A stretch of DNA of 64,000 bases from Dyella sp. 2HG41-7 (lineage in GTDB: Bacteria; Pseudomonadota; Gammaproteobacteria; Xanthomonadales; Rhodanobacteraceae): the NCBI RefSeq assembly GCF_021390675.1, contig NZ_JAJEJV010000004.1:3720001-3784000 (forward strand), written 5' to 3'. Shown piece by piece: positions 30 through 15,554 of the stretch (position 1 is the first letter of the stretch; each line of letters starts with the position of its first letter). A model generated the notes under the pieces. It was not told where the DNA came from. It searched no databases and was given only the letters and a program-made list of their open reading frames with translations. A program made the position numbers and the translations under genes.

Positions 30-116
30 TTAGGCCAACATCGCTGCCAACGTCGAGACACACAGCGCAACGCAAACGGCGAAGAAGCTATTCAGCATCA
101 GAGTTTCGAATTTCAT
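30..116 (-). CDS. 28-aa hydrophobic micropeptide, copy A of a three-copy family
   Basis: A 28-residue peptide beginning MKFETLMLNSFFAVC, followed by a hydrophobic stretch ending AAMLA; residues 6-28 could form one membrane span. It is preceded by a strong ribosome binding site (GGAGA, six bases before the ATG). Near-identical genes lie at 6996-7082 (25 of 28 residues the same) and 15254-15340 (26 of 28). Most differences between copies are silent: codons 5, 8, 13, 15, 20, 24 and 27 vary without changing the residue in at least one pair. That argues for selection on the peptide. A sigma-54-type promoter sits about 47 bp upstream of the ATG. I recognise no family. A small membrane-stress peptide, a signalling peptide or a type I toxin-like peptide are all possible; function is unknown. 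Too short for routine gene calling. Confidence 0.75.
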   Translation of the reverse strand: MKFETLMLNSFFAVCVALCVSTLAAMLA

Positions 117-162
117 GACGGCTCTCCAAGAAGTAAGTGAGTGAGGCTTTCGAGATAGGTAT

Positions 163-178
163 TGCAATCTCGATGCCA
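163..178 (-). promoter_or_regulatory. sigma-54 (RpoN) promoter of micropeptide copy A
   Basis: On the minus strand the sequence reads TGGCATCGAGATTGCA, matching the RpoN consensus TGGCAC-N5-TTGC with GG at -24 and GC at -12 in correct spacing. Transcription would start near 151, giving a leader of about 35 nt. The other two copies of the gene have the same element at the same distance. Confidence 0.8.
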
Positions 179-245
179 ACTGCACAATTAGCTTGAAAAC
201 CGCATAGCCAAGCCGTTTTTGCGAATACGCCGAAATGCGCGAATT

Positions 246-289
246 TGTCCGCGGACAGATGTCCGCAGTGTCCGGACATCATGCGGACA
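246..289. promoter_or_regulatory. Nested TGTCCG/CGGACA palindromes, probable activator site of copy A
   Basis: Positions 246-257 form the perfect palindrome TGTCCGCGGACA, and 269-278 form TGTCCGGACA. The second is flanked by the inverted pair TGTCCGCA (260-267) and TGCGGACA (282-289). The cluster lies roughly 70-110 bp upstream of the -24 element, the usual place for a sigma-54 enhancer-binding protein. The same motifs stand upstream of copies B and C. That these are activator sites is inference. Confidence 0.6.
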
Positions 290-364
290 AAGCACGTCAT
301 GACTAAAGTCATACGCGTCAAACGACGCGATATTGCAGCAACGTTTCAAGGGTGTCGGCACGAA

Positions 365-392
365 AAAAAGAGCGACAGACGCCGCTCTTTTT
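365..392 (-). terminator. Rho-independent terminator downstream of the GH95-like gene
   Basis: Inverted repeat AAAAAGAGCG / CGCTCTTTTT with an 8-nt loop. On the minus strand it ends in a T-run about 50 bp after the stop of the gene at 444-2849. It insulates the micropeptide promoter from that gene and could work in both directions. Confidence 0.7.
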
Positions 393-443
393 GTCATCTC
401 ATGCAGTCTCGCCACGCAACGCAATGAAATCCGCGACGCGCTC

Positions 444-2849
444 TCAATGCGCAAACAAACCGATGCTCGCGCGACCCAATCGCTTCGGTTGTTGCGCGGG
501 CATGCCTGTCACCGGAGCAAACGCCCAGGACTTCATCGATGCCGGTCGCAGCAGGTAGTTCACGCTCTGCTTCGTCGATAGCGCAAATATCGCCTTGCCC
601 GCGGGCACCGTGAACAAACGCGTCGTCCCTGCCATGACATCGACCGCTTCGCCGGACCATGGATTGCGAATGTCCAGAGACGATGTCGATCCCGCTTCGA
701 TCACCACATTAGTTACCTGCCCGTGGCGCACTTGCACGTCTACTCTCGACTGCCCGTCGATATAGACCTGACCGTCGGCATCCCAGTCCTTCGGCCATGC
801 TTGCGCGATACGAATCAGGCCATCGTCGCCCTGCCACACCAAAGCCGCCTGCAATGCAGCGGATACGACGGCGCCCTGCTCGACGTAGAAATCCGCGCGT
901 CGCTTCCAGCCGAATAGGGATGCGAAGCCGTTGGGAAAGGCTTGAAACCGATCCGTAAGCGCGTAGAGCGTGGACGCCACATCATCGGGCTTTTGCAGCA
1001 ACGCGGCTTGCAGCGGATCAAAGCTCCAGTCGATGGCGACGGGATGGGGGCGACGCTGAAACGTGCGTTGCGCCAGCGCAAACAGCGGTGACGCGTCGTT
1101 GATCGTTTCGTAAGGCCACACCGGCTCCAAACCGATGTTTTCGATGTTTTGCGCTTCGGCCGCAGGTTGATACGACGCGGCGATCACGTCTGTACCGGAA
1201 ACATCCGCATTGGCCGCCAACATTTGTTTCTGCGTGGCCGCATCGGTGCGCGGTAGCGGCGGCAATTTCTTGAGCGCGGCCTGCATCTGTTCCACCAGCG
1301 GCGCGTCTTGTCCGAGTTGTTTGGCCGCATCGCTGGTTGCGGCGAATAGCGCGCGCATCGCGGCAAGATCCGTCGTGGGATCGCGTACGTCCCATTGCGT
1401 TTCGTGCGCATTCGACGGCGCCGTATGCAGCAAGCCGTCATCGCCGGGTTTGGCGTAGCTGAGCAAAAAACGTGCGGCTTCGGCCATCCATGGATAATGC
1501 TCTCGCAGAAATGCCGTATCGCCGGTCACGCGATATTGGCGCCAGATCCACAACGCCACTTCCGCGCCGGTGGACAGCGTGCGCGCGTTGTAGAAGGGCT
1601 CGGATTGCGCATCGCAATCCAACGCGGTCTGCGGTGTCGCCCAAGTTTCGAATTCGTAGCCTTGGCCGTTGAAGCGCATGGTCTCGGGAACGCAGATGCC
1701 GTCGCGTTGCATATGCGTGCGCGTCCATTGCTTCAACGCGTCGAGGTTTTCGAGATACAGATGAAAGTACGGGAGGTTGGCGTTCGCCAGGCCAGCGCCG
1801 AGATTCGCCGCAATCTGCCCCCGCAAATTCCAGTGCCAGAATGCGGCCGGATCCCACGCGTGCTGGTCGCGTCGCGAGGAGAACAGATCGCCCATACCGG
1901 CTTGCGAACCCGGATGATCGTCGCCGCGTTCGGCGACGGCGGCATATAGATTGATGGCGCGCAGATTTTCCATGTATTGCGCGACGCCATCGGCCGATTG
2001 CAAACGCATTAGTCCCGTATGCGCCCAGAAATCGTGCCACCACTGCGCGTGGCGGGCCGGTGCGATATCGGCGGTCAAGATTTTTTTCACCGTATCGGGC
2101 GCGCCGCCAGCGTATGCAGGCGACGCTATCAACACGCGGAAGCTGCCATCTTGGCGTGGCATGAAATCGATGGTCACGGCGAGTTTGCCATCGGTGCTTG
2201 CACGCACGTCACGCGCTTGCACGGTGACGCCAGCCAGCGCTCCGAATGTGCGCCCTGAAAATCCGGGTGGCGTGTCGCCATGCTGGCCTTGGCGATGATC
2301 GTCTTTCCAGCTTTGCCACAACACGCCCACGGCGCCGTGCGCATCGATCTGCGCGGTGCGTGGCGCCCACCATTGCAGCGTCACATGCGAGCGCTTGCCG
2401 GGGTCCGCGCCGGTGACATCGATCACCAGCACGTCGCTGTCCGGTTCGATATGCGCTTTCGCCGTCATACCGCCGCCGCTTTCGACGAACTCGCCGTTAT
2501 AGAGATCCAATCGCCCGCGATAGTCCGCAGCGCGCGTCAGCGTCTGCAGCACGGGAATCGTCACTTCACCGGGCGACAGGCGATCGGGCAGCGTATCGGC
2601 GCGGTTGAGTTGCAATGTCATGCCGTCGGCCGACCATACCGCCGCGCCGAGACGACCATTGCCGAGCGGCATCGCCTGATCGGGTTGCAGATTCGGGCGA
2701 AGCAACACGATGTCCGAGCGCGACACCACGCCCGGAACATCGACCTCGAACCGACCATCGCGCCAAGCGGTCGTGTTCTGCGCATGACCGGCAACGACGG
2801 TGAACACACAAATCAGAGCCAAGCACGCACGGCGTCGCATGCCGCTCAT
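444..2849 (-). CDS. Secreted GH95-like / DUF5703 glycoside hydrolase family protein
   Basis: 801 residues from an ATG with a good GGGGAGG ribosome site; an in-frame ATG 24 codons upstream has none. Residues 1-24 are a Sec signal peptide ending GHAQ. Around residue 59 the motif AMPLGNGRLGAAVW matches the N-terminal domain of GH95 / DUF5703 proteins (compare 'PLGNGRLGA' in alpha-L-fucosidases). The middle and C-terminal parts have the Trp-rich helical pattern of an alpha/alpha-barrel and a final beta domain. It probably acts in the periplasm or outside the cell on plant or microbial polysaccharide. Substrate cannot be read from the sequence; catalytic residues were not verified. It stands alone, with inverted repeats in its promoter region (2932-2991) suggesting a dedicated repressor or activator. 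Confidence 0.72.
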   Translation of the reverse strand: MSGMRRRACLALICVFTVVAGHAQNTTAWRDGRFEVDVPGVVSRSDIVLLRPNLQPDQAMPLGNGRLGAAVWSADGMTLQLNRADTLPDRLSPGEVTIPVLQTLTRAADYRGRLDLYNGEFVESGGGMTAKAHIEPDSDVLVIDVTGADPGKRSHVTLQWWAPRTAQIDAHGAVGVLWQSWKDDHRQGQHGDTPPGFSGRTFGALAGVTVQARDVRASTDGKLAVTIDFMPRQDGSFRVLIASPAYAGGAPDTVKKILTADIAPARHAQWWHDFWAHTGLMRLQSADGVAQYMENLRAINLYAAVAERGDDHPGSQAGMGDLFSSRRDQHAWDPAAFWHWNLRGQIAANLGAGLANANLPYFHLYLENLDALKQWTRTHMQRDGICVPETMRFNGQGYEFETWATPQTALDCDAQSEPFYNARTLSTGAEVALWIWRQYRVTGDTAFLREHYPWMAEAARFLLSYAKPGDDGLLHTAPSNAHETQWDVRDPTTDLAAMRALFAATSDAAKQLGQDAPLVEQMQAALKKLPPLPRTDAATQKQMLAANADVSGTDVIAASYQPAAEAQNIENIGLEPVWPYETINDASPLFALAQRTFQRRPHPVAIDWSFDPLQAALLQKPDDVASTLYALTDRFQAFPNGFASLFGWKRRADFYVEQGAVVSAALQAALVWQGDDGLIRIAQAWPKDWDADGQVYIDGQSRVDVQVRHGQVTNVVIEAGSTSSLDIRNPWSGEAVDVMAGTTRLFTVPAGKAIFALSTKQSVNYLLRPASMKSWAFAPVTGMPAQQPKRLGRASIGLFAH

Positions 2850-2931
2850 AACGCCTCCCCGCCAGTCAAAAAGGGGAACACGAAAACATTGATGGCGCGT
2901 TTTTTCATCAGGACTCCGCATCGCCTAAAGG

Positions 2932-2991
2932 AAATGCTTTCGTTTACGAAGCATTTTCCTACGCTTTTCTTCATTTATCATACTAAATGAA
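2932..2991. promoter_or_regulatory. Two inverted repeats upstream of the GH95-like gene
   Basis: AAATGCTT (2932-2939) and AAGCATTT (2949-2956) form one dyad. TTCATTT (2970-2976) and AAATGAA (2985-2991) form another, in an AT-rich patch containing a TATGAT-like -10 on the minus strand. They lie 80-140 bp upstream of the start at 2849 and look like operator sites; the regulator is unknown. Confidence 0.4.
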
Positions 2992-3094
2992 AATCGATGC
3001 AAATCGCCCACGACCCGCCATGTCAGGAAAGCGGACAAGCGTCCATGCCGTCCGAGCGAGCGTCGGACAAATCCCTTACACGTACCAGCTTGCT

Positions 3095-3736
3095 TTAGGC
3101 AGCCCAAGCCGAACAGCGGATCACGCTGCAGAAATTACCGGCATGGAAGTGCGGGTCCTTGTCGGCGAGCACGTCGGCTTTCACGTTGCCGAACGTCGTA
3201 TCGGACTTGTGCTTAATGCCGTCGTAGAACGCCTGGATGATGTCTTCCTTGAACTGATTTCCTCGCGGATGCGCGCGCACGACAGCTTCTCGCTCGGCGT
3301 CGCTGTACTGCGCGTAGGTCAAGCCGAGCACATCCATGTCGACACCGGCCGTCACTAGCGCAACCAGCGGATGCATGTGCTGCGGAATACCGGGCGTAGT
3401 GTGCAGCGCGATCGCGGTCCAGACGTTGTCGATGACGTACTGATGAATGCCGTGCCGCTTAAGAAAGTCGCGCGCCGCGTTGGCGCCGTCGACCTCGAAC
3501 CGTTCGTTGGCGCTGCTGTGTTTTTTCGTCAGCCCCATGTCGTGGAACATGCAGCCGCAATACAACAGCTCCGGGTCGAACTTCAGTCCGCGATGTTTGC
3601 CAGCCAAGGCGGCGAAGTAATAAACGCGACTGGAATGATGAAACAGCAGCGGCGATTCCGTATCGCGAACCACGTCGGTGATTTCGCGGGCAAATGCGCT
3701 GTTGGGAATCGCAACGCCTTGGATATTGAGGGACAT
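3095..3736 (-). CDS. HD-domain phosphohydrolase-like protein
   Basis: 213 residues starting at the ATG preceded by GGAGATCCCAC; frame extends further upstream but without a ribosome site. His-33/His-34 (LFHHSSR) and the doublet His-64/Asp-65 (MFHDMGL) are the metal-binding pattern of the HD superfamily. The arrangement resembles the cyanamide-hydratase-like HD subgroup rather than nucleotide-signalling GD/PP hydrolases. No signal peptide, so cytoplasmic. It is divergent from the GlxA-type regulator at 3858, separated by about 120 bp, which suggests that regulator controls it. Substrate unknown. Confidence 0.75.
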   Translation of the reverse strand: MSLNIQGVAIPNSAFAREITDVVRDTESPLLFHHSSRVYYFAALAGKHRGLKFDPELLYCGCMFHDMGLTKKHSSANERFEVDGANAARDFLKRHGIHQYVIDNVWTAIALHTTPGIPQHMHPLVALVTAGVDMDVLGLTYAQYSDAEREAVVRAHPRGNQFKEDIIQAFYDGIKHKSDTTFGNVKADVLADKDPHFHAGNFCSVIRCSAWAA

Positions 3737-3857
3737 GTGGGATCTCCATAAACCGGGGATATCCATTTTCAGCGGGCCATGGGCTGTCCTCAATAGAAGT
3801 AATACGCCATATACTGCCAAATCGCGCATAATGCGGACGCGTCAGAGATCTATTCAT

Positions 3858-4823
3858 ATGGCCAAGACCGTCGCGATCCTCGCCTTACCGGGCGTCCAAC
3901 TGCTGGATGTTTCCGGCCCGCTGGATGTGTTCGCGCAGGCGAATATCGAAGCCGGCAAAGAGTTCTACGCGCTCAAGGTTATCGCGTGTAAAAGCGGCCC
4001 CATTCGCAGTTCGTCCGGGGCGCGTCTGCTGCCGGACGGCATTGCCGGCGAGATGGACGAGCGTGTCGATACCTTGCTGATTGCCGGAGCGCCGAACGCC
4101 GGCAAGATCGTCCTTTCCTCGCACGTTTTAACGTGGCTGCGAGAAACCGCCAAGCGCAGCCGGCGATACGGTTCGATTTGCACAGGCGCCTTCGTGCTTG
4201 CCGCGACGGGCCTGCTGGATGGACGCCATATCACCACGCATTGGGCGGCGGCCGAAGATCTGGCGCAGGCTTTCCCGACGCTGCAGATCGACGAAGACGC
4301 GCTTTATGTCCGCGACGGAAAACTCTGTACCGCCGCCGGTGTAACGGCGGGTTTGGACCTCGCATTAGCGCTGGTCGAAGAGGATCTGGGCCGCGATATC
4401 GCCAAGCGCGTCGCCGCGCAGTTGGTCATGTTTTTCAAGCGGCCTGGCGGGCAATTGCAGTTCAGCCGAAAAGGCGAAACCCGACCCATTGGACGCTCGG
4501 TGCTGCAAGAAGTGCAGCGCTGGGTCGCCGCCACGCCGAATCTCGATCACAGCATTGCCGGCATGGCGCAGCACGCGGGGCTAAGCCCTCGGCATTTTGC
4601 GCGCTTATTCCATGCCGAGGTCGGCATTACGCCGGCCGCATGGGTAGAAACGACGCGCGTCACCGCGGCCAGAAAGCTTCTGGAGAATGGGTACGACACG
4701 CCAAAGCTGGTGGCGTCCAAATGCGGCTTCGCCAATGCCGACACCTTGCGCCGAACATTTAAAAAGCACGTCGGCGTGACGCCTGCTGAATATCGAAAGC
4801 AGCATACGGTGCGATCCGAGTAG
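3858..4823 (+). CDS. GlxA-family AraC-type transcriptional regulator
   Basis: 321 residues. Residues 4-170 form a DJ-1/PfpI-like (class I glutamine amidotransferase-like) domain with the nucleophile-elbow motif SICTGAF (Cys-108). Residues about 220-318 form an AraC-type double helix-turn-helix, including LSPRHFARLF and the C-terminal signature GFANADTLRRTF...GVTPAEYR. This fusion is the hallmark of the GlxA/FtrA regulator family; the DJ-1 part is normally a ligand sensor, not an enzyme. The start chosen is ATATGGCC; earlier in-frame codons would overlap the divergent HD gene. Probably regulates the neighbouring HD gene. Confidence 0.88.
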   Translation: MAKTVAILALPGVQLLDVSGPLDVFAQANIEAGKEFYALKVIACKSGPIRSSSGARLLPDGIAGEMDERVDTLLIAGAPNAGKIVLSSHVLTWLRETAKRSRRYGSICTGAFVLAATGLLDGRHITTHWAAAEDLAQAFPTLQIDEDALYVRDGKLCTAAGVTAGLDLALALVEEDLGRDIAKRVAAQLVMFFKRPGGQLQFSRKGETRPIGRSVLQEVQRWVAATPNLDHSIAGMAQHAGLSPRHFARLFHAEVGITPAAWVETTRVTAARKLLENGYDTPKLVASKCGFANADTLRRTFKKHVGVTPAEYRKQHTVRSE

Positions 4824-4844
4824 CTTCCGATAAAAGCACGAGCG

Positions 4845-4874
4845 CGTAGGCTAGGATCGTCATCCCAGCCTACG
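4845..4874. repeat. Hairpin between convergent genes
   Basis: CGTAGGCTAGGAT and ATCCCAGCCTACG form a 13-bp stem with one mismatch and a 4-nt loop, in the 67-bp gap between the convergent genes ending at 4823 and 4891. It has no clear T-run. It shares the GGCTGGGAT stem with the repeats at 6811-6891, so it is probably a REP-like element that may also end transcription. Confidence 0.5.
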
Positions 4875-4890
4875 GACTGCTCTTCTCCGG

Positions 4891-6603: not shown

Positions 6604-6810
6604 CTAATCCTCCAACTGCACTTGGAAAATTGAACGTGAGTCGTCATGTCTAGCTAGAGAAAGAACCGCAAATGGACTCGCGTCACCGGGTATGCGCAAA
6701 GACTTCGGCGCCGAAGGTGGGGGCGACGGCGCACTGCAACTTAGGTTGGCCGTTGGCTTCGAACCAGTGCTGGTCGTCATGACGCAATGCATCGTGCTCA
6801 CGCGATCGCC

Positions 6811-6891
6811 GTGGGCGTGCAGCCCACGTTCTAGGCTGGGATGGCCATCCCAGCGTTGCACGGCCGTCTTTGCTGGGAAGGCAATCCCAGC
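6811..6891. repeat. Cluster of palindromes in the intergenic region 6604-6995
   Basis: GTGGGC...GCCCAC (6811-6827) is followed by the perfect 20-bp palindrome GCTGGGATGGCCATCCCAGC (6835-6854) and a related near-palindrome at 6872-6891 (GCTGGGAAGGCAATCCCAGC). Apart from these REP-like elements I see no gene in the roughly 390 bp between the TPR gene and micropeptide copy B. Confidence 0.6.
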
Positions 6892-6995
6892 CTGCTCGCC
6901 TTACGAAAGGTCAGGACACTCGCAACTCAAAAATGCGCTGACCTTTCGCGACATCGCTTCAACCCGGGGAGTGGGGGAGCCGTTTCAATATCGCG

Positions 6996-7082
6996 TTACG
7001 ACAGCATCGCTGCCAACATCGAGACACACAGCGCTGCGCAAACGGCGAAGAAGCTATTCAACATCAGCGTTTCGAATTTCAT
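6996..7082 (-). CDS. 28-aa hydrophobic micropeptide, copy B
   Basis: Same length and start (MKFETLMLNSFFAVC) as copies A and C. It differs from A at residue 16 (Val to Ala), 22 (Thr to Met) and 28 (Ala to Ser). Ribosome site GGAGA lies six bases before the ATG, as in the others. It is driven by the sigma-54-type element at 7129-7144, and downstream lies the palindrome cluster and then the TPR gene. Neighbours differ from those of copies A and C, so the conserved unit is promoter plus peptide rather than a larger operon. Function unknown. Confidence 0.72.
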   Translation of the reverse strand: MKFETLMLNSFFAVCAALCVSMLAAMLS

Positions 7083-7128
7083 GGCGAATCTCCTTACGCT
7101 AAGTGGGTGTGGCCTTCGCGATAGGTGC

Positions 7129-7144
7129 TGCATATCCGATGCCA
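7129..7144 (-). promoter_or_regulatory. sigma-54 promoter of micropeptide copy B
   Basis: Minus strand TGGCATCGGATATGCA: GG and GC ten bases apart as RpoN requires, with one deviation (ATGC for TTGC). Spacing to the ATG equals that in copies A and C. Confidence 0.72.
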
Positions 7145-7212
7145 ACCGCACAAAACCCTGGAAAACCGCATAAAAGCGCCATTTGCGAGCGCCGGCGAAA
7201 GTGACCCAATTT

Positions 7213-7245
7213 GTCCGCGGACGGCCGTCCGTAGCGCCCGGACAA
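7213..7245. promoter_or_regulatory. GTCCG/CGGAC palindromes upstream of copy B
   Basis: GTCCGCGGAC at 7213-7222 is followed by GTCCG and CCCGGACAA half-sites to 7245. Position relative to the promoter matches the clusters at 246-289 and 15471-15523. Likely binding site for the shared sigma-54 activator (inference). Also lies between the MarR gene stop and the promoter. Confidence 0.55.
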
Positions 7246-7296
7246 GGGCGCGCATAGGTCGTGCCAACGATTAAGAGGCGCTAAAACGCCTTGTTT

Positions 7297-7848
7297 TCAG
7301 GGATTCGCTTCTTCGTCGGCGACTTTCAAAAAGCCGTCTCGCACGCGTCGATAGAAGCTTTGGAACAACGCAAGCTCGTCCTGCGTCAGCACGCCGAGCG
7401 CTTTTTTCAGGCGCGCTGCGTTGAGATCCATCGCACTCGTAAAGATCTCTTTGCCCTTGTCCGTCAGCGTGGCGAGCAAGCGGCGGCGATCTTCTTCATC
7501 GCCCACCGAACGCACCAAACCTTCCTGCTCCAGCGAATACATCATCGCGGACACAGTCGCGCGTTTGACCTGCAGCGCCGCGATGATTTCCTGATGCGGC
7601 ACCGGGCGATCGCCGGCTCCCCATAACAACGCCAGCGTCTGGAAGCGCGCGGGCGAACCGGCCGTGCCTTCCAGCCAGCTGTTCAACACGTTGGTGATCT
7701 GCTGCGAGCCCGATTTGATCAGGAACACGGTCTCCATGCGCTGGGCCGCGTCCTCCGGAAAACGACGCAGATAGGCCTCGCGCAGGTACGGCGTGGGGAA
7801 GTTGGTCTGCTCGCTGTTTTCCAAGTCTTTCAAGGGATTACCTCTCAC
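7297..7848 (-). CDS. MarR-family repressor of the efflux operon
   Basis: 183 residues from a GTG start with GGAGGG seven bases upstream. Residues about 60-140 are the winged helix of MarR proteins: VKRATVSAMMYSLEQEGLV is the recognition helix and VGDEEDRRRLLATLTDKG the wing. It is divergent from the emrA-emrB-oprM-like operon at 8054. MarR regulators in this arrangement (for example EmrR/MprA) repress the pump genes and are released by toxic ligands. The 205-bp intergenic region holds an 18-bp dyad (7956-7973) suited to a MarR dimer. Confidence 0.88.
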   Translation of the reverse strand: MRGNPLKDLENSEQTNFPTPYLREAYLRRFPEDAAQRMETVFLIKSGSQQITNVLNSWLEGTAGSPARFQTLALLWGAGDRPVPHQEIIAALQVKRATVSAMMYSLEQEGLVRSVGDEEDRRRLLATLTDKGKEIFTSAMDLNAARLKKALGVLTQDELALFQSFYRRVRDGFLKVADEEANP

Positions 7849-7955
7849 CGGAACCCTCCGGCGCTGGACTGTATGTGAAATAACAATCGTGTCTAAGAAC
7901 GATTATGCAGGAAAAACAGTGACATAAAAATAATACGCCTCCGAACTGTATGGTC

Positions 7956-7973
7956 GTTGACTTGTTTGTCAAC
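7956..7973. promoter_or_regulatory. Probable MarR operator and promoter of the efflux operon
   Basis: GTTGAC-TTGTTT-GTCAAC is a perfect dyad overlapping a TTGACT -35-like hexamer, with TACATTAT just downstream. Position between divergent MarR and pump genes suggests autoregulated repression. Confidence 0.5.
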
Positions 7974-8053
7974 TTACATTATTGTCTGCCGCCATACAAA
8001 TATGACTTGGCTCGCGATGGTCGCCCGCCGGTCCACGATTGGAGGAGTTGGTC

Positions 8054-9142
8054 ATGAGCAACACCGAAACAGAGGTCCAGGCGAACGCCCAGCCCGCGCG
8101 CCGCCCGTTGCCGCGCAAAACCAAGATCGCCGTAGCGGTGGGCGTCGCAGCGCTGGTGCTGGTCAGCGGCGGCGCCTACGCCGTGATGTCCGGCCGCAGC
8201 GTGTCCACCGACGACGCCTACACGGACGGCCGCGCGATCACCATCGCGCCGCATGTGGCCGGCTATGTGTCCGAGCTCGATGTCACCGACAACCAGTTCG
8301 TGCGCAAAGGCCAGGTGCTGGTGCGTATCGAATGCACGGACTACCTCGCCGCGCGCGATCACGCGCAAGGCGCGCTGGAATCCGCGCAAGGACAACTCGC
8401 CGCCGCGCAAAGCGATCTGGATCTGGCGAAGATCACCTACCCCGCCAAATTCGCCGCCGCGCAAGCCACGCTTTCCACCGAGCGCGCGAATCTCTCCAAG
8501 GCGCAATCGGAGTACGTGCGCCAGCACGGCATTCCGAAAGAAGCCACCACCTCGCACGACATCGACTTCGCCACCGCCACGCGCGACGCCGCACAAGGCG
8601 ACGTAGCGCAAGCGCAAGCCCAGGCGCGCATCGCCGAGCCGGTGAACCTCAATATCGCCGACGTGCAAGCGCACGTGGAACAACTCACCGGCGACGTAAA
8701 GCGCGCGCAAGCGGATCTCGATCAAGCCAAGCTCAATGTCGGCTATTGCGATGTGGTCGCGCCGCAGGACGGCTGGGTGACGAAGCGCGGTGTCGAGAAA
8801 GGCGATTACATCCAGGTCGGTCAGCAATTGTTTGCCGTGGTGAGCCCGGAAGTGTGGGTGACGGCGAACTTCAAGGAAACCGAGCTTACGCATATGCGGA
8901 TTGGACAAAAGGTTTCCATCGCGGTGGATGCGTATCCCAATTTGAAGTTGAACGGGCACGTCGACAGCATCCAAGCCGGTTCGGGCGGCAAATTCACCGC
9001 GTTTCCGTCTGAAAACGCCACCGGCAATTTCGTGAAGATCGTGCAACGCGTGCCGGTGAAAATCGTGATCGACTCCGGTTTGGATGCGAAACAGCCGCTG
9101 CCGCTCAATCTTTCCGTTGAACCGACGGTGTCGCTGCAATGA
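8054..9142 (+). CDS. emrA: EmrA-like membrane fusion (HlyD-family) subunit of efflux pump
   Basis: 362 residues, start chosen at the ATG preceded by GGAGGAGTTGGTC. After a short cytoplasmic tail one membrane span (about 28-48, VAVGVAALVLVSGGAYAV) is followed by SVSTDDAYTDGRAITIAPHVAGYV, the first half of the lipoyl-like domain typical of EmrA. A long alpha-helical hairpin runs from about 100 to 220, and the second lipoyl half and beta-barrel (VVAPQDGWV...VTANFKETELTHMRIGQ) follow. It links the inner-membrane transporter to the outer-membrane channel. Its stop overlaps the emrB start (ATGA), so the two are translationally coupled. Confidence 0.93.
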   Translation: MSNTETEVQANAQPARRPLPRKTKIAVAVGVAALVLVSGGAYAVMSGRSVSTDDAYTDGRAITIAPHVAGYVSELDVTDNQFVRKGQVLVRIECTDYLAARDHAQGALESAQGQLAAAQSDLDLAKITYPAKFAAAQATLSTERANLSKAQSEYVRQHGIPKEATTSHDIDFATATRDAAQGDVAQAQAQARIAEPVNLNIADVQAHVEQLTGDVKRAQADLDQAKLNVGYCDVVAPQDGWVTKRGVEKGDYIQVGQQLFAVVSPEVWVTANFKETELTHMRIGQKVSIAVDAYPNLKLNGHVDSIQAGSGGKFTAFPSENATGNFVKIVQRVPVKIVIDSGLDAKQPLPLNLSVEPTVSLQ

Positions 9143-10719
9143 GCGCCGCAGCCTCCGCCCATGACGCTGCATGGAAGCCGCGCGGCAATCCGTGGCTGAT
9201 CGCGGTGGTGGTCACGCTTGCGGCGTTTATGGAAATTCTCGACACCACCATCGTCAACGTGGCGCTGCCGCATATCGCCGGTAGCTTGTCGAGCAGTCCC
9301 GACGATGCGACGTGGACGCTTACTTCATACCTCGTCGCCAACGGCATCGTGCTCACCATCTCCGGCTGGCTGGGCGCGGTGATCGGCAGAAAGCGCTACT
9401 TCATGATCTGCATCGCGATGTTTACGGTGTGTTCGCTGCTGTGCGGATTGGCGCAGAGCCTGCCGCAGTTGATCGTGTTTCGCCTGCTGCAGGGCTTTTT
9501 CGGCGGCGGTCTGCAACCGAATCAGCAAGCGATCGTGGTGGATTCGTTCGAGCCGAAAAAGCGCGCCGCCGCGTTTGCGATCACCGCGATAGCTACGGTG
9601 GTGGCGCCGGTGCTCGGTCCGGTGCTCGGCGGTGTGATTACCGACCATGCATCGTGGCGCTGGATTTTCTTTATCAATATTCCGGTCGGCATCTTTGCGT
9701 GCTTTGCCGTGGGCGCGCTGGTGGACGATCCGCCGTGGGCCAAGAAGCAAAGCCGCTCCGTCGATTACATCGGCCTCGGCTTGATCACCCTTGGCTTGGG
9801 CTGCATGCAAGTGATGATGGATCGCGGTGAAGACGAAGGCTGGTTTCAATCGCCCTTTATCGTGCATATGGCCATTCTCACCGTGATTGGCCTCACGGGT
9901 GCGGTGACGTGGTTGATGATTGCCAAGAAGCCCATCGTGAACCTGCAAGTGTTCAAAGACCGCAATTTCGCGATCAGCTGCGGCTTGATGATCGGCATGG
10001 GTTTTATTCTTTACGGCAGCGCCGTGCTGATGCCGCAATTCGCGCAGACAACCATCGGCTACACCGCCACCTGGGCCGGATTCGTGCTGGCGCCCGGAGG
10101 CCTGGTGATCATCATGCTGATTCCGCCGGTCGGCCGGCTGATGAAAGTCGTGCAATTGCGTTATCTGATCGCCGTGGGTTTCGCGATCATGATGTTGGCG
10201 ATGTGGTTCTCCAACCGGCTGGTGCCGAACATCGACTTTTTCACGCTCACGGCGATGCGCAGCGCGCAGGCCGCAGGACTTGGATTCCTGTTCGTGCCGA
10301 TCAGCATCATGGCGTATCACAGCTTGCCGCGTTCGCTTGGCGCTGATGCATCCGCGTTGTTCGTGATGTTTCGTAACGTGTCCGGTTCGGTTGGCATTTC
10401 CGCCGCCAGCGCGATGGTGTCGGAACGCACGCAGGCGCGTCAGGCGCATCTGTCGACGTGGCTTACACCCTTCAATCAATCGTTCAACGCATTGATCGCG
10501 CGTAACGAGGCCACCTTGCGTTCGCTCGGACACGCCGCAAGCACTTTGCACGAGACGGCGCTCGGCCGTGCGTTTCAGGCCTTGCGGCAACAATCCGCCG
10601 TGTTGGCCTACGCCGATACCTTTATTTATTTCGCCGTGCTCGCCGCGGCCATGATCCCGCTCGCGTTGCTGCTGTCGCCCGTCAAAGACGGCGGCCACTC
10701 CGCCGCGCCCATGCACTAA
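9139..10719 (+). CDS. emrB: EmrB/QacA-type MFS drug transporter (DHA2, 14 spans)
   Basis: 526 residues with the span pattern of a 14-TM DHA2 antiporter. Motif LDTTIVNVALPHIAG in the first span, GWLGAVIGRKRYF (motif A between spans 2 and 3) and GPVLGGVITDHASWRWIFFINIPVG (motif C region in span 5) are clear. It exports hydrophobic compounds using the proton gradient. It overlaps emrA by 4 bases and is followed after 30 bp by the outer-membrane factor gene, giving a complete tripartite pump. Confidence 0.94.
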   Translation: MSAAASAHDAAWKPRGNPWLIAVVVTLAAFMEILDTTIVNVALPHIAGSLSSSPDDATWTLTSYLVANGIVLTISGWLGAVIGRKRYFMICIAMFTVCSLLCGLAQSLPQLIVFRLLQGFFGGGLQPNQQAIVVDSFEPKKRAAAFAITAIATVVAPVLGPVLGGVITDHASWRWIFFINIPVGIFACFAVGALVDDPPWAKKQSRSVDYIGLGLITLGLGCMQVMMDRGEDEGWFQSPFIVHMAILTVIGLTGAVTWLMIAKKPIVNLQVFKDRNFAISCGLMIGMGFILYGSAVLMPQFAQTTIGYTATWAGFVLAPGGLVIIMLIPPVGRLMKVVQLRYLIAVGFAIMMLAMWFSNRLVPNIDFFTLTAMRSAQAAGLGFLFVPISIMAYHSLPRSLGADASALFVMFRNVSGSVGISAASAMVSERTQARQAHLSTWLTPFNQSFNALIARNEATLRSLGHAASTLHETALGRAFQALRQQSAVLAYADTFIYFAVLAAAMIPLALLLSPVKDGGHSAAPMH

Positions 10720-10749
10720 TCGTTTTTCGCATTGTCGAGGACAACTGCC

Positions 10750-12312
10750 ATGAACATCATCAAGCTGCACATTGCGCTGGCAACCGTACTTTTGGCTGGA
10801 TGCACGGTGGGCCCGAACTTTACGCGACCGGATGCCAAACTTCCGAACGCTTGGTGCGATACCGGATGCCAGGCGAAACAAACGGTGCCGAGCGTCACTG
10901 CGGCGGCGCCGATCAACACTGCATGGTGGACATCGTTCAACGATCCGGAATTGGCGAAACTGGAAGCACGCGTCGCCGACGCCAATCTCGATCTGAAAGT
11001 CGCCTCGCTGCGACTGGAAGAAAGCCGTGCGGAACGCTCGATCACCGCTGCCGATCAACACCCCAGCATCAACGGCAACGCGAGCGCCGTGCGTGAACGC
11101 GCCAGCGCCAATGGCGTAACGAGCCTGGCTGGCGCGTTGACGCAGTCGACCAACGCGGCAACAGCCGCTAACGGCACCGGCCCCGGCATTGCGAATTTGC
11201 CTTCAAGCAAAGGCTCCGCGCCGCTCAATCTGTTTCAGGCAGGCTTCGATGCAAGTTGGGAAATCGACTTGTGGGGCCGCGTGCGTCGCGAAGTGGAAGC
11301 GGCCGATGCATCCGTCGACGCGCAAGCCGACGCTCGCCGCGATCTGCTGATGTCCACCATGGCCGAAGTGGCGCGCGACTATATCCAGCTGCGCGGCACG
11401 CAAACCGATTACGCGATTACGCTCGATAGCCTGAAGGCCGCCAAGGATGCCGAACGCGTGACGCGCGAACGCAAGGCGAACGGTCTCGCCAGCGATCTGG
11501 ATGTGGAAGAAGCCGCCTCGCAGGTCTCGGCCGAAAACGCACTGCTGCCGCAGCTTGCGCAGCAGGAAGCCGAAACCATCAATCGCTTGAGCTTTTTGCT
11601 CGGCCAGGCACCCGGCGCTTTGCGTGCGGAACTGGAAGAAACCAAGCCCGTGCCGCCCACGCCGCCGGTGGTGCCGGTCGGCCTTCCGTCGGACCTCGCG
11701 CGTCGTCGCCCGGATATTCGCGAAGCGGAAGCCAATCTGCATCAAGCCACCGCGCAAATCGGCGTCGCCAAGGCCGACTTCTATCCCAGCATCACCCTCT
11801 CCGCCAGCGGCAGCTTGCAAGCCACGCAATTCAGCAAGCTCGGCGACTGGGGTTCGCGTCAGTTCTCCATTGGCCCGTCGATCAATCTGCCTATTTTCGA
11901 AGGCGGTCGTTTGAAGGCGACGCTCAATCTGCGCAAGGAACAGCAACAGGAAGCCGCCATCAATTACCAACGCACCGTGCTGTCGGCATGGCACGAGATC
12001 GACAACGCGCTGACGCAGTATTCCTCGCAACAGCAACGCCACGATGAACTGACGGCGGAAGTTCAGGACAACCAGCGCGCGCTCCGCCTGGCACAAGCGC
12101 AATACACCGCCGGCACGGGATCGTTCCTGCAGGTGCTCGATGCCGAGCGTCGCCTGTTGTCCGCACAGCAAGATCTCACCGACAACACCACGCAGATCTC
12201 CACCACGCTCGTGTCGCTGTACAAGGCGCTGGGCGGCGGCTGGGAAGCGACGTATCCGGAAGCCGCGTCGAACGACGCGGTGGCGACAACCACGCAAGCG
12301 CAGCGCTTTTGA
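10750..12312 (+). CDS. NodT/OprM-type outer-membrane efflux lipoprotein
   Basis: 520 residues, start at ATGAACATC. The N-terminus ends in the lipobox LLAGC, so it is a lipoprotein anchored to the outer membrane. CTVGPNFTRPD is the standard start of the mature NodT family. Two tandem OEP repeats follow, with FQAGFDASWEIDLWGRVRREVEAADA in the first and the GLPSDLARRRPDIREAEANL signature in the second. It forms the trimeric exit duct for the EmrAB-like pump encoded just upstream and is probably cotranscribed with it. Confidence 0.93.
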   Translation: MNIIKLHIALATVLLAGCTVGPNFTRPDAKLPNAWCDTGCQAKQTVPSVTAAAPINTAWWTSFNDPELAKLEARVADANLDLKVASLRLEESRAERSITAADQHPSINGNASAVRERASANGVTSLAGALTQSTNAATAANGTGPGIANLPSSKGSAPLNLFQAGFDASWEIDLWGRVRREVEAADASVDAQADARRDLLMSTMAEVARDYIQLRGTQTDYAITLDSLKAAKDAERVTRERKANGLASDLDVEEAASQVSAENALLPQLAQQEAETINRLSFLLGQAPGALRAELEETKPVPPTPPVVPVGLPSDLARRRPDIREAEANLHQATAQIGVAKADFYPSITLSASGSLQATQFSKLGDWGSRQFSIGPSINLPIFEGGRLKATLNLRKEQQQEAAINYQRTVLSAWHEIDNALTQYSSQQQRHDELTAEVQDNQRALRLAQAQYTAGTGSFLQVLDAERRLLSAQQDLTDNTTQISTTLVSLYKALGGGWEATYPEAASNDAVATTTQAQRF

Positions 12313-12335
12313 TTCGCTCATGGGAGTGACGTTCC

Positions 12336-12833
12336 ATGAACAACGAATTCGTCAATGATTCGAGCAAGCCAAGGACGCACTCCGTCGACAAGCCCAACGA
12401 TTTGGCGGAAGTCGACGCGCTCTACACAATGGCGGAGGTCAGCCGCATCCTGAAGTACGCGACCTCCGCCATCGAGAAACTGGCGCAGGTCGCCTCAGGA
12501 ACGAGCGACTTGACGTTGATGCACTGCCTGGTGCTGGTTCACCTGTCGCGCACGCCCAGCTGCAAACAAGTGGACCTGAAATCCGTCACCGGTATCACCC
12601 CGGCGCATTTGACGAAGTTGGTGGATGAGTTGGTGAATCGCGGTTTCGTACGTCGCCACCGATCGTCGGGCGATCGCCGGCAGGTCATCCTGGCGTTGAC
12701 GACAGCGGGGCGGGAAACGGTATTGCGTGTGGTGGCGTCGTTGCGGTCGCATAGCAATGATGTGCCGCTTGGCGCCATTGAAGAGCTTGGGTCTTCGTTG
12801 GCGCATTGGGTTGCCGCTACGCATAGCGAATAA
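12336..12833 (+). CDS. Second MarR-family regulator at the end of the efflux operon
   Basis: 165 residues; ribosome site GGGAG nine bases before the ATG, 23 bp after the channel gene. Residues about 65-135 form a MarR winged helix with the recognition helix ITPAHLTKLVDELVNRGFV and wing RHRSSGDRRQVILALTTAG. It is distinct from the divergent MarR at 7297 and lacks its N-terminal extension. The pump is thus bracketed by two MarR genes. It may respond to a different ligand or be an operon-encoded feedback regulator; direct evidence is absent. Confidence 0.85.
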   Translation: MNNEFVNDSSKPRTHSVDKPNDLAEVDALYTMAEVSRILKYATSAIEKLAQVASGTSDLTLMHCLVLVHLSRTPSCKQVDLKSVTGITPAHLTKLVDELVNRGFVRRHRSSGDRRQVILALTTAGRETVLRVVASLRSHSNDVPLGAIEELGSSLAHWVAATHSE

Positions 12834-12883
12834 CTTCTAAAGGGCCAGTGGGCACTGGACTCCGAAGGCTCCCACTCTTTCGC

Positions 12884-13002
12884 TCGTCATTCCGGCGAAG
12901 GCCGGAATCCAGTACTAATACGTAGTGCGAAGCACTCAACATAGGTCTTGTGTGCTTCGCACAGCGTATTTCACTGGATTCCGGCCTTCGCCGGAATGAC
13001 GA
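12884..13002. repeat. Long inverted repeat of the ATTCCGGC-type dispersed element
   Basis: A 30-bp arm (12884-12913) is repeated inverted at 12973-13002, each containing its own shorter palindrome CCGGCGAAGGCCGG. The inner 59 bp contain a further imperfect dyad (GTGCGAAGCAC...GTGCTTCGCAC). A copy with near-identical arms is at 27402-27521; a sister type is at 15088-15166 and 33519-33597. Non-coding REP/MITE-like element. Confidence 0.85.
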
Positions 13003-13084
13003 TCAAAATCAGCACGCACTCTGCCCCTCTCCCCCAACGCATGCGCTAAAGTCCTAAGACTCGGTCCGCGATGGTCGACGCGCC

Positions 13085-14170
13085 ATGAAACGATTGCACG
13101 TGCATTTGATCCTGTGGCCCTTTGTTTGCGTGGCATTGGTGCTCGTCAGCATTCGCCTGCTGCTTCCTGGCTGGATTCGCCACCACCTCGACGACCGCAT
13201 CGACAGCATGGGCTCGTATCACGGCTCGATGGCCGAGGTGGATTTACACCTTTGGCGCGGCAGCTACACGATCCGCAACTTGCGTATCGACAAAATCGGC
13301 GCGCCCGCCAACCAACCGTTCCTCGATGCGCCTCGCACGGAGATTGCGGTGAGTTACGCCGAGGCGCTGCGCGGTCGCCTTCGCGGTCACGTCGATTTCT
13401 ACGACGCGACAGTCAATTTTATCGACGGTAAAAGCGAGAGCGAGCAACAGCTCGGCAAGGGCGTTAATTGGAGCAACGAGCTCAATATCCTGATCCCCGC
13501 CGAGCTGGATAGCATCAACATCCATAACGGCACGGTGACGTTTCGCAATGTGGTCTCCAGTCCGAACGTCGACCTGACCATGGTCAACGTCAACGCGACG
13601 ATCACCAACCTCTCAGCGTCGCAGAGTGAAAGTGGCGAACGCATGGCCACTTTGCATGGCACCGCCACGGTGCTTCGCGATGCGCCACTGGAAACGCAAG
13701 CCACGTTCGACCCGACCAATCGCTTCGGCAACTTTCATTACCAAATCCGCATCACGCAAATTCAACTCGTGCGCGCCAACGCCCTCGCCCGCGCGTATTC
13801 GGGACTGGATTTTGCCGGCGGCACCGGCGATTTCACCATGGACCTGAAAGCCACCAACGGCCAACTGGACGGCTACGCCAAACCGATCTTCAAGGACCTG
13901 AAACTTTTCAGTTGGAAGAAAGACGTCCAACAAGAGAAAAAGGGACCGATCAAGCTGCTGTACGAAGCCGCTGCACAAGGCGCGGTTTCACTGCTGAAAG
14001 GTCCGACCAACGATACTTTGGTGACCAACGTGCCGATCAGCGGGCGCATCGGCGACAGCGAATTCGGCAAACCGCAAGCGATTTTCAATGTGGTGCACGA
14101 TTCGTTTCTGCATGCGTACGAATCGCAACTTGAGCACTTGCAGCCATCGCCGGATGCGGCAACGCATTGA
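13085..14170 (+). CDS. AsmA/DUF748-like membrane-anchored protein
   Basis: 361 residues. One N-terminal membrane span (residues 7-29) is followed by beta-rich sequence with WRGSYTIRNLRIDKIG and the ISGRIGDSEFGKPQAIFNVV tail seen in DUF748 / AsmA-like proteins, which sit in the inner membrane and extend into the periplasm. AsmA-like proteins are implicated in phospholipid transport and outer-membrane assembly; DUF748 proteins have no settled function. About half the length of typical DUF748 proteins. Stands alone, with no good Shine-Dalgarno visible ahead of the ATG. Confidence 0.7.
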   Translation: MKRLHVHLILWPFVCVALVLVSIRLLLPGWIRHHLDDRIDSMGSYHGSMAEVDLHLWRGSYTIRNLRIDKIGAPANQPFLDAPRTEIAVSYAEALRGRLRGHVDFYDATVNFIDGKSESEQQLGKGVNWSNELNILIPAELDSINIHNGTVTFRNVVSSPNVDLTMVNVNATITNLSASQSESGERMATLHGTATVLRDAPLETQATFDPTNRFGNFHYQIRITQIQLVRANALARAYSGLDFAGGTGDFTMDLKATNGQLDGYAKPIFKDLKLFSWKKDVQQEKKGPIKLLYEAAAQGAVSLLKGPTNDTLVTNVPISGRIGDSEFGKPQAIFNVVHDSFLHAYESQLEHLQPSPDAATH

Positions 14171-14287
14171 CGTAGCGCCGCAGCGACCACATCGCCAAGC
14201 ATAGAAACAGACCGGTTTATCGATGGCGCATGTTCGTATGCGTCGCGTAGGCATTTGCCAACAACACAAAACGCCTCTGTCCGACAG

Positions 14288-14409
14288 ATCGCACCATGGC
14301 TTTCGTGCGATGGTTTGACTGTCGGGCGTGGCGTCCCTGGTATGAACACAGCACGCCCGACATGAGAGAAGTAGCGCGGATCGCCGGAGTTACCGCTCAG
14401 ACGATCCGC
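14288..14409 (+). other. Structured intergenic region with three successive stem-loops
   Basis: Three perfect stems follow one another: ATCGCAC/GTGCGAT (14288-14311), TGTCGGGCGTG/CACGCCCGACA (14320-14362, 11 bp) and GCGGATCG/CGATCCGC (14376-14409). The 525-bp gap between the genes at 13085 and 14696 holds these, a short ORF (14442-14576) and two more hairpins. Density of perfect stems suggests a structured RNA (leader or small RNA) on either strand; no known family is recognised. Confidence 0.4.
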
Positions 14410-14441
14410 TGGCCACCACCAACTTGAAGGACAAGTCAACG

Positions 14442-14576
14442 ATGGTTACGCTCGATCATAAGGCACCCGCGCATAAACGCGCCCCCGCAGCGGTGCAACG
14501 CCCCAACTACTTCTCCTCCGCGCCTTCGGCCCGGTGTCGAGCCTTAGTGGGTTTCCGACGAAATGGAAGCAGCTGA
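14442..14576 (+). CDS. Possible 44-aa small protein
   Basis: An ATG preceded by AAGGAC opens a 44-residue frame, rich in Arg, Ala and Ser and lacking hydrophobic segments. It follows the structured region at 14288-14409 and precedes two hairpins. No family recognised. It may be a real small basic protein, a leader peptide, or chance; I favour leader peptide or chance. Confidence 0.25.
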   Translation: MVTLDHKAPAHKRAPAAVQRPNYFSSAPSARCRALVGFRRNGSS

Positions 14577-14590
14577 TTCCTACAAGCCGG

Positions 14591-14638
14591 ACAGGTCCTA
14601 CCTGTAACCCGTCACGCCGCGCGCAATACGCGGCGTGA
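14591..14638 (+). other. Two adjacent hairpins ahead of the gene at 14696
   Basis: ACAGGT-CCT-ACCTGT (14591-14605) is followed by TCACGCCGCG...CGCGGCGTGA (14612-14638, 10-bp stem, 7-nt loop). No T-run follows, so this is not a standard terminator; it could be a 5' leader structure of the next gene. Confidence 0.4.
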
Positions 14639-14695
14639 TCCAAGCGTGCGCGGTATTTACCTACGCCACCGCTCCCCTGCGCAAAGGAATTCCCC

Positions 14696-15001
14696 ATGAA
14701 AGAAAATGCCCCCGGCGCCTGGCTAACCCTCAACGCCAGCTACTTCGCCGCCCCGGTGTTAAACCCACTCCGCCTGCTCGACGACGCACAAACCTTGATC
14801 GAAAACGCCCACGGCGTCGTTCAAGTTATGCGCGACGCTTTGCAACTTTCCCCCTACGTCGACAACCGCGCACTCGCGCACGCGCTAAAAGCCGTCGAAA
14901 TACTGATGGAAATGAGCGCCGGCTGCGCCGAAGTGGCGCATGTACGCTTTGTGTCAATCGGTGACGGATGGATCGATGCGTATCAATCGATGGATACGTA
15001 G
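14696..15001 (+). CDS. Small hypothetical protein (101 aa)
   Basis: 101 residues from an ATG with AAAGGA eight bases upstream. Sequence is alpha-helical, with LNPLRLLDDAQTLIENAHGVVQ and ALAHALKAVEILMEMSAGCAEVAH, and no signal peptide or membrane span. The organisation (short N-terminal part, helix of 'ALxxAxxLL' type) recalls small DUF3077/DUF6124-like proteins of gammaproteobacteria, but I cannot confirm membership. It stands alone, preceded by the structured region described at 14288-14638. Confidence 0.55.
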   Translation: MKENAPGAWLTLNASYFAAPVLNPLRLLDDAQTLIENAHGVVQVMRDALQLSPYVDNRALAHALKAVEILMEMSAGCAEVAHVRFVSIGDGWIDAYQSMDT

Positions 15002-15087
15002 CGCGTTGGCGTGAGTGATTCGTAAGTACAAAATCAAAACGCGAAACGCGATGTAGCAATGACCATGAATCCGCCTCGTTACCTCAC

Positions 15088-15166
15088 CGTCATTCCAGCG
15101 AAAGCTGGAATCCAGCGAGTTTGATGCTTTTAGAGTCACTGGATCCCAGCTTTCGCTGGGATGACG
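15088..15166. repeat. Inverted repeat of the ATTCCAGC-type dispersed element
   Basis: CGTCATTCCAGCGAAAGCTG... (15088-15115) and its inverted partner ending GCTGGGATGACG (15139-15166) form a 28-bp stem with two mismatches around a 23-bp loop. The same element, with perfect arms, is at 33519-33597. The extreme ends match the element at 12884-13002, so the two types belong to one family. Confidence 0.85.
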
Positions 15167-15253
15167 AGCAATAGAGCGATGAAATCCCAGGCAGAGAATT
15201 CATTAAGGTCTTCGGCAAAACCTACGCGACCTACGAGCAAGTTCAACATGGAC

Positions 15254-15340
15254 TTAAGCCAACATCGCCGCCATCGTCGACACACACAGCACAACACAAA
15301 CCGCGAAGAAGCTATTCAACATCAGCGTTTCGAATTTCAT
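15254..15340 (-). CDS. 28-aa hydrophobic micropeptide, copy C
   Basis: Same start (MKFETLMLNSFFAVC) and length as copies A and B; differs from A at residue 17 (Ala to Val) and 23 (Leu to Met). Ribosome site GGAGA six bases before the ATG. It is driven by the sigma-54-type element at 15387-15402, and the shared upstream palindromes lie at 15471-15523, bounded by a strong terminator. Codon changes relative to copy A are mostly silent. Neighbours are a REP element downstream and a decayed SEC-C gene upstream. Function unknown. Confidence 0.75.
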   Translation of the reverse strand: MKFETLMLNSFFAVCVVLCVSTMAAMLA

Positions 15341-15386
15341 GACGGTTCTCCAAGAGATAAGTGAGTGAGGCTTTCGAGTTAGGTAT

Positions 15387-15402
15387 TGCAAACCCGATGC
15401 CA
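15387..15402 (-). promoter_or_regulatory. sigma-54 promoter of micropeptide copy C
   Basis: Minus strand TGGCATCGGGTTTGCA fits the RpoN consensus TGGCAC-N5-TTGCA with one mismatch. The spacing to the ATG is the same as in copies A and B. Confidence 0.8.
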
Positions 15403-15470
15403 ACCGCACGAATGCCTGAAAAACCGCATCACAGCGCCATTTGCGAGATTCAACGCAAGCGCACCAAATC

Positions 15471-15523
15471 GTCCGCGGACAGATGTCCGAGCCGTCCGGA
15501 CAACGCCCGGACAACGCCCGGAC
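15471..15523. promoter_or_regulatory. GTCCG/CGGAC palindromes with repeated half-sites upstream of copy C
   Basis: GTCCGCGGAC (15471-15480), GTCCGAGCC, GTCCGGAC (15494-15501), then two further tandem copies of ACGCCCGGACA. More half-sites than in copies A or B. Location fits an enhancer-binding protein site (inference). Confidence 0.58.
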
Positions 15524-15554
15524 AAAAAAAAGCGGCCCAAGGCCGCTTTTTTTT
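15524..15554. terminator. Bidirectional Rho-independent terminator
   Basis: Perfect stem AAAAAAAAGCGGCC-caa-GGCCGCTTTTTTTT with A- and T-runs on both sides. It follows the SEC-C pseudogene on the minus strand and insulates the micropeptide regulatory region. Confidence 0.85.

Follow-up and report, generated by a model that had tools for sequence, protein, structure and literature searches.

Bce-type modules of Firmicutes, such as BceRS-BceAB and BraRS-VraDE with VraH, unite a permease of the FtsX/MacB superfamily with a two-component system in which the kinase has a short loop and the response regulator is of the OmpR type. In tripartite exporters of the MacAB and DarBCD kind, an HlyD-type adaptor is combined with an ATPase of the LolD/MacB class and MacB_PCD/FtsX permeases, and the ADOP permeases (TIGR03434) constitute a duplicated type. 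Regulons governed by sigma-54 and the NtrC family of activators, exemplified by those of NtrC, PrsR, GlrR, and AtoC, are built from -24/-12 promoters, upstream palindromes, and an activator of receiver-AAA-Fis architecture. YoaI, AcrZ, and MgrB, each of about 50 aa or less, are single-TM small membrane proteins, and MgrB acts on PhoQ as a feedback regulator. A small TM protein also belongs to a Bce-type setting: an excerpt of PMC5786555 describes VraH as the small TM partner of VraDE and gives the loop of Bce-type kinases as ~25 aa.

Dyella and its relatives possess one to several copies per genome of a tiny membrane peptide, whose promoter layout, shared with genes of an exporter-like run, points to an undescribed envelope-response system. 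Judging from sequence comparison, the regulon and the coding status of the peptide genes are well supported; a molecular role can be proposed conditionally. As in Bce-type modules, permeases of the FtsX/MacB superfamily accompany a two-component system, and the kinase, with 28 residues between two hydrophobic stretches as judged by hydropathy only, resembles the layout of two TMs and a ~25-aa loop given in the excerpt cited above. However, the host is Gram-negative, an NtrC-family activator acting with sigma-54 takes the place of the OmpR-type regulator, an adaptor and an array of ADOP-type half permeases are present, and the peptides are encoded by unlinked multicopy genes. The positively charged C-terminus of VraH is lacking in the 28-aa peptides, which is counted against the comparison. 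Adaptor, ATPase, and permeases are of the same types as in MacAB and DarBCD, but the ATPase and the permeases are separate genes, the permeases are many, and the cut-offs of the MacA, MacB, DarC, and DarD models are not reached. The permeases are of two alternating types, each corresponding to one half of ADOP; unlike ADOP they are encoded by two separate genes, score below its cut-off, and share their run with adaptor, ATPase, and activator. The promoter and activator architecture is that of the NtrC, PrsR, GlrR, and AtoC regulons, whereas the targets are micropeptides and ABC permeases.

The micropeptide genes and their promoters

The window is the whole stretch of 64,000 nucleotides analyzed here, part of the 4.26-Mb genome of Dyella sp. 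2HG41-7. Three minus-strand genes in it encode 28-residue peptides beginning MKFETLMLNSFFAVC, with the following surroundings:

30..116, minus strand: micropeptide gene copy 1 (MKFETLMLNSFFAVCVALCVSTLAAMLA), ORF encoding 28 aa
123..127, minus strand: RBS GGAGA, copy 1
163..178, minus strand: predicted sigma-54 -24/-12 promoter TGGCATCGAGATTGCA, copy 1
195..220, minus strand: conserved intervening element (AAAAACGGC...ATGCGGTTTT), copy 1, from the three-copy alignment
246..289, minus strand: TGTCCG/CGGACA cluster, putative enhancer (activator sites), copy 1
6996..7082, minus strand: micropeptide gene copy 2, 28-aa ORF
7129..7144, minus strand: predicted sigma-54 -24/-12 promoter TGGCATCGGATATGCA, copy 2
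7161..7184, minus strand: conserved intervening element, copy 2, from the three-copy alignment
7212..7244, minus strand: TGTCCG/CGGACA cluster, putative enhancer, copy 2
15254..15340, minus strand: micropeptide gene copy 3, 28-aa ORF
15387..15402, minus strand: predicted sigma-54 -24/-12 promoter TGGCATCGGGTTTGCA, copy 3
15417..15442, minus strand: conserved intervening element, copy 3, from the three-copy alignment
15470..15524, minus strand: TGTCCG/CGGACA cluster, putative enhancer, copy 3, its last half-site reading CGGACG

In all three copies GGAGA lies six bases 5′ of the ATG, a sigma-54 element of the form TGGCATC-N5-TGCA with GG-N10-GC spacing lies 46 nt above the ATG, and a stretch with AACCGCA is found; the TGTCCG/CGGACA half-sites are placed 135-184 nt above the ATGs, that is, ~73-122 nt above the -24 element. 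The genes and each of these elements had been pointed out in a sequence-only reading of the window, and all were recovered. Its description of the copy-to-copy differences as mostly silent likewise agrees with the counts of synonymous to nonsynonymous changes among the three copies (4:2, 6:2, and 6:4). Promoter and peptide had been taken together as the conserved unit, and an alignment with flanks, in which the window leaves copy 1 with hardly any sequence 3′ of the gene, confines the homology to the stretch from the TGTCCG cluster to the stop codon. The family had been described as one of three copies, which is true of the window, but the genome holds six, and the family has longer members as well.

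The surroundings of copies 2 and 3 include REP-like palindromic repeats with CCCAGC/GCTGGG 3′ of the genes (~6830-6900 and 15087-15165). Between these two copies, at 8039-12833, lie genes resembling those for EmrA, EmrB, and OprM and, after them, a MarR-like gene, all named by reading their sequences.

A promoter class shared by peptide, adaptor, and permease genes

A loose pattern, CGGAC-N55-85-TGGC-N8-TGC, matched 58 times against 68 for its reversed form and was therefore replaced by the longer pattern CGGACA-N63-70-TGGCAY-N6-TGC, which was searched in 31 genomes with the reversed pattern as a control. This yielded 108 sites against 5 reversed, and 88 against 1 in the 16 genomes of the same genus. 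Among the 88 same-genus sites, 57 lie 22-54 nt 5′ of a peptide start; 16, one per genome, precede a MacA-like adaptor gene with the start motif RDTSAQD; 11 precede a MacB-type permease, called by start motif; and 4, which have one half-site and fall within long ORFs, look like chance matches. Of 200 genomes sampled from the order, 34 contain a stricter form of the site, and none contains its reversed control. All fetched DNA contains 165 distinct sites, a sample biased to peptides. An automatic rule assigned 119 of them to peptides, 18 to adaptors, 10 to permeases, 1 to an S33 hydrolase, and 17 to none of these classes; on reading, these last included three permeases and two adaptor-like genes.

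The -24/-12 element, TGGCA(C/T)...TGC with GG-N10-GC, scores 10-12 of 12 in 61 of 63 first-in-unit copies, 36-68 nt above the called start, the 15 second-in-tandem copies having been set aside. The remaining two are window copy 2, where the element keeps its standard position and scores lower, and L067, which fits a looser pattern. An rpoN gene is present in the genome (one PF04552 match, 3.5e-69), and on these sequence grounds a sigma-54 promoter very probably precedes the micropeptide genes. Across the 34 genomes of the own taxonomic family, 28 have peptide and strict site, 1 the peptide only, 1 the site only, and 4 neither, an association with a Fisher P of 5e-4 when kinship between genomes is ignored. 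The numbers of peptide sites and permease sites per genome are weakly correlated (rho 0.47, P 0.07, n=16), a weakness that is counted against the reading of the peptide as a permease partner.

The interval between enhancer and promoter differs among the forms of the gene. By a strict pattern, the AAATGGC...ATGCGGTTTT element is found in 20 of 34 short-peptide promoters, in 9 of 14 long forms without a cysteine tail, and in 0 of 18 long forms with the tail. Sites resembling the IHF consensus occur in the same interval in 9 of 18 two-cysteine forms, as against 0 of 34 short and 1 of 14 tail-less long forms.

The transporter run and its candidate activator

Elsewhere in the genome a site of the same class heads a 17-kb same-strand run of genes:

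C4:3494669-3494755, same strand as the run: promoter-class site heading the transporter run

The run comprises an HlyD-type adaptor, an ABC ATPase, seven permease-like ORFs, a proline-iminopeptidase-like S33 hydrolase, a response regulator, and a HAMP histidine kinase, the regulator gene lying near its end at C4:3479.4-3480.8 kb. The seven permease-like ORFs were called by start motif; the three put to Pfam all matched FtsX, and two of them MacB_PCD as well. Over ~1.3 kb of the run (C4:3487182-3488471, inside L178) no permease frame was called on the run strand, and this piece could be a broken or mis-called permease. A similar permease pair (L311 6114-8667, C4:3707-3710 kb) is located ~10 kb outside the window start, with no recognizable site of the promoter class.

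Among NCBIfam models, the adaptor passes the RND-type adaptor model TIGR01730 (RND_mfp) with 120.4 bits against a cut-off of 94.9, which is counted against our reading, and stays below the cut-offs for MacA (53.5 of 342 bits) and for DarC, its third-best match (74 of 450). For the ATPase the best match is DarD, with 259.6 of 375 bits, and the full-length MacB model gives 216.7 of 966. The two alternating permease types align with positions 5-401 and 411-801 of the ADOP model TIGR03434 at 174.7 and 191.2 of 622.3 bits, below its cut-off. In the best 25 of 38 NCBIfam families, the regulator too is below cut-off, the best score being 351.5 of 714 bits for AtoC, besides 346.1 of 502.6 for PEP_resp_reg (TIGR02915, PrsR). 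In the kinase, with a start chosen by us and by hydropathy only, peaks are placed at 10-28 and 57-75.

The regulator consists of Response_reg, Sigma54_activat, and Fis HTH domains (Pfam), and its GAFTGA loop reads GAYTGA. The genome encodes six strong sigma-54 activators, of which the one at C4:3479 kb is tied to the promoter class. A strict site and a regulator match occur together in 34 genomes. In 23 of these the site lies at most 40 kb upstream of the regulator on the same strand, where 0.34 would be expected, the 40-kb limit having been chosen after the positions were seen. Two things count against the linkage: in 11 of the 34 genomes no strict site is linked to the regulator, and in G059 and G070, which are among the 23, the regulator is only 45% identical. 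Regulator identity amounts to 71-72% in the five genomes of the family without the peptide and to 79-100% in those with it, G107 excepted. Because of the same-strand run from promoter to regulator, the activator domains, and the linkage of site and regulator across genomes, the protein encoded at C4:3479 kb is highly likely to be the common activator. An RpoN micropeptide regulon under one common activator, as conceived in the sequence-only reading, is thus upheld in its sigma-54 promoters, its single type of palindrome array, and its likely activator, but not in its extent, for the targets are not peptides alone.

The peptide family

A profile search located six peptide copies in the genome. 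Besides the three of the window there is a single copy at C4:1747 kb, and two longer forms lie in tandem at C4:587 kb. No same-genus genome among the 16 searched, the own included, has fewer than two matches. With E<=0.01, matches are obtained in 31 of 200 genomes of the order, namely in 29 of 34 of the own taxonomic family and in 2 of 166 others. These two hits are weak (E about 0.007) and fall within open frames of 393 and 493 aa; they were rejected, as was a match in G021 with E 0.4 within a 420-aa frame. From the fetched stretches 79 frames were taken, of which one row (L050, end 1139) was dropped; the resulting 78 copies are divided into 36 short ones (27-34 aa as called, usually 28) and 42 longer ones (47-76 aa as called), 18 of the latter carrying a C-terminal two-cysteine tail. 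In many genomes the tandem long pair adjoins trmL-, ubiJ-, and ubiB-like genes, these names being assigned from the sequences by reading.

For six full-length members of the family no Pfam or NCBIfam model scores above its cut-off, and the sole match of the peptide profile among PDB sequences is chance-like (E 0.1). No published account of the promoter, the peptide, or the regulon was found in titles and abstract openings among the matches listed; in the excerpt of PMC5552954, TGTCCG is part of a primer. Genome G210, of another genus of the family, contains seven near-identical dispersed peptide cassettes (L313-L319). The L313 cassette is flanked by ~320-bp inverted repeats, 91% alike and REP-like in appearance, as if peptide, promoter, and repeats had spread together.

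The short copies bear a signature of coding constraint. A median dN/dS of 0.12 was obtained from 562 unsaturated pairs of the 36 short copies. Their pN/pS is 0.22 when read in the coding frame; the two remaining sense frames give 1.0 and 1.5, and the three antisense frames 1.2, 0.47, and 2.2. The value of 0.47 in antisense frame 1, below the other control frames and above the coding frame, is counted against our reading. Over all 78 copies, E4 and F12 are conserved in 78, L8 in 77, M26 in 76, C19 in 74, and C15 in 72, and a TM-like hydrophobic stretch is present in 78 of 78 by hydropathy. The six conserved residues lie on a single helix face (R 0.90, matched by 23 of 177100 six-position sets). 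By these sequence criteria the short genes are almost certainly protein-coding micropeptides under purifying selection, and the side-specific conservation together with the dN/dS of 0.12 suggests a protein partner.

Beyond the family

G143 and G163, which belong to another family and have no peptide match, carry a site ahead of an adaptor-like gene within 7 kb of the regulator. In G030 and G059, from two further families, the site is followed by an unrelated small ORF of exported appearance. This ORF lies immediately 5′ of trmL, so named from its sequence by reading, in the same place that the long peptides occupy. Since sites outside the family precede adaptor-like or unrelated ORFs, the link between promoter and transporter is probably older than the peptide family. 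The same promoter type is seen before unrelated small exported-looking ORFs at L176, L271, and L173 of other families, directly before trmL in the first two.

Within the family itself, the 2.9-Mb genome G107 (L312) retains a single peptide gene ahead of trmL; in its promoter the palindrome is degenerate and the -24/-12 element good. At E<=1e-100, scoring 8 of 45 candidates produced no regulator match in G107, nor was a permease matched at E<=1e-25; the peptide can therefore persist without them, which is counted against our reading. In G018 a hydrolase sharing a motif with the S33 hydrolase is found under a promoter-class site, and in G031 a DUF885-like protein; such peptidase-like genes would fit a peptide-directed response.

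Proposed mechanism and alternatives

Building on the observed promoter geometry, coding constraint, helix face, and genome linkage, the following circuit may be envisaged, in which the unity of the run as an operon, the binding of the regulator to DNA, the inducing signal, and the partner of the peptide are the conditional elements. Damage to the envelope or a compound resembling a peptide would be the probable trigger of the kinase, which might sense it together with the permeases. The phosphorylated regulator would then bind the TGTCCG arrays and fire the transporter operon, the extra permeases, and the micropeptide genes together, the run from adaptor to kinase presumably forming one operon. 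The micropeptide would insert as a single TM helix whose E-L-F-C-C-M face would pack onto other TM helices, either those of the MacB-type permeases or those of the kinase, tuning their activity as VraH does for VraDE. A response to envelope or peptide stress is the somewhat favored setting, and it is moderately probable that the peptide is a partner or modulator of permease or kinase, the feedback reading discussed below included. A role as partner of the permeases alone falls slightly short of an even chance, and the whole explanation, a sigma-54 regulon with one regulator and kinase in which micropeptides tune permeases or kinase, is evenly balanced. An extension of it is speculative and rather unlikely: micropeptides as interchangeable subunits whose Cys-Cys-Met face docks into paralogous ADOP-half permeases, and thereby determines how specific or how sensitive a combinatorial machine for peptide sensing and export would be, with unrelated small exported proteins filling the pre-trmL slot in other families.

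The peptide, above all in its ~68-aa form with the two-cysteine tail, might bind the kinase in the membrane and shut off or sharpen the response, in the way that MgrB acts on PhoQ. This would be in keeping with a promoter type common to the peptides and the run with the kinase gene, with the one TM-like helix and the C-terminal two-cysteine tail of 18 of 42 longer members, and with a kinase that has merely a short loop between its two hydrophobic stretches. A simple feedback loop needs no multiple copies, however, of which this genome has six, and 36 of the 78 extracted copies are entirely tail-less, so that such a regulator is improbable. Secreted signals or RiPP-like products exported by the adaptor-ATPase-permease array would account for a multicopy family with variable tails and a promoter type in common with the exporter run, and the best match of the ATPase and the third-best of the adaptor are indeed subunits of the darobactin exporter (DarD and DarC). 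Yet both scores lie under the cut-offs given above, and the conserved part is a hydrophobic helix, beyond which the 28-aa members have little else; a substrate role is quite improbable. The signal-peptide role named in the sequence-only reading is possible but not favored, and no observation speaks for the type I toxin-like role that it also named.

The membrane-stress role offered by that reading is compatible with the proposed circuit. In another alternative, the peptides would act on the membrane itself, lowering the potential or slowing metabolism in the manner of YohP or type I toxins. Their size and hydrophobicity would suit such autonomous action, the three window copies align weakly with YoaI (NF041475; 14.8-14.9 bits, E about 0.02, cut-off 45), and an excerpt of PMC12719787 notes that stress often raises the expression of small membrane proteins. 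The side-specific conservation and the dN/dS, which suggest a protein partner, and the recurrence of two or more matches in every one of the 16 same-genus genomes speak against it, and its probability is correspondingly small. A functional peptide might be missing altogether, the transcript being a regulatory RNA or the matches being due to chance. The short genes are indeed without annotation, and Rfam returned no family above its gathering score in the window, which argues neither for nor against an RNA; but the dN/dS in the coding frame, residues conserved over 78 copies, and the fixed promoter geometry leave this a negligible probability.

The circuit envisaged here, with micropeptides tuning permeases or kinase, is a testable scheme that brings together the micropeptide family, the arrays of split ADOP-type permeases, and a two-component system of the NtrC family, 84 of the 88 promoter-class sites in the 16 same-genus genomes falling to peptide, adaptor, or permease genes. 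It would be a Gram-negative, sigma-54 counterpart of the peptide-antibiotic response modules, and its TM micropeptides would form a naturally occurring collection in which the face for interaction is clear.
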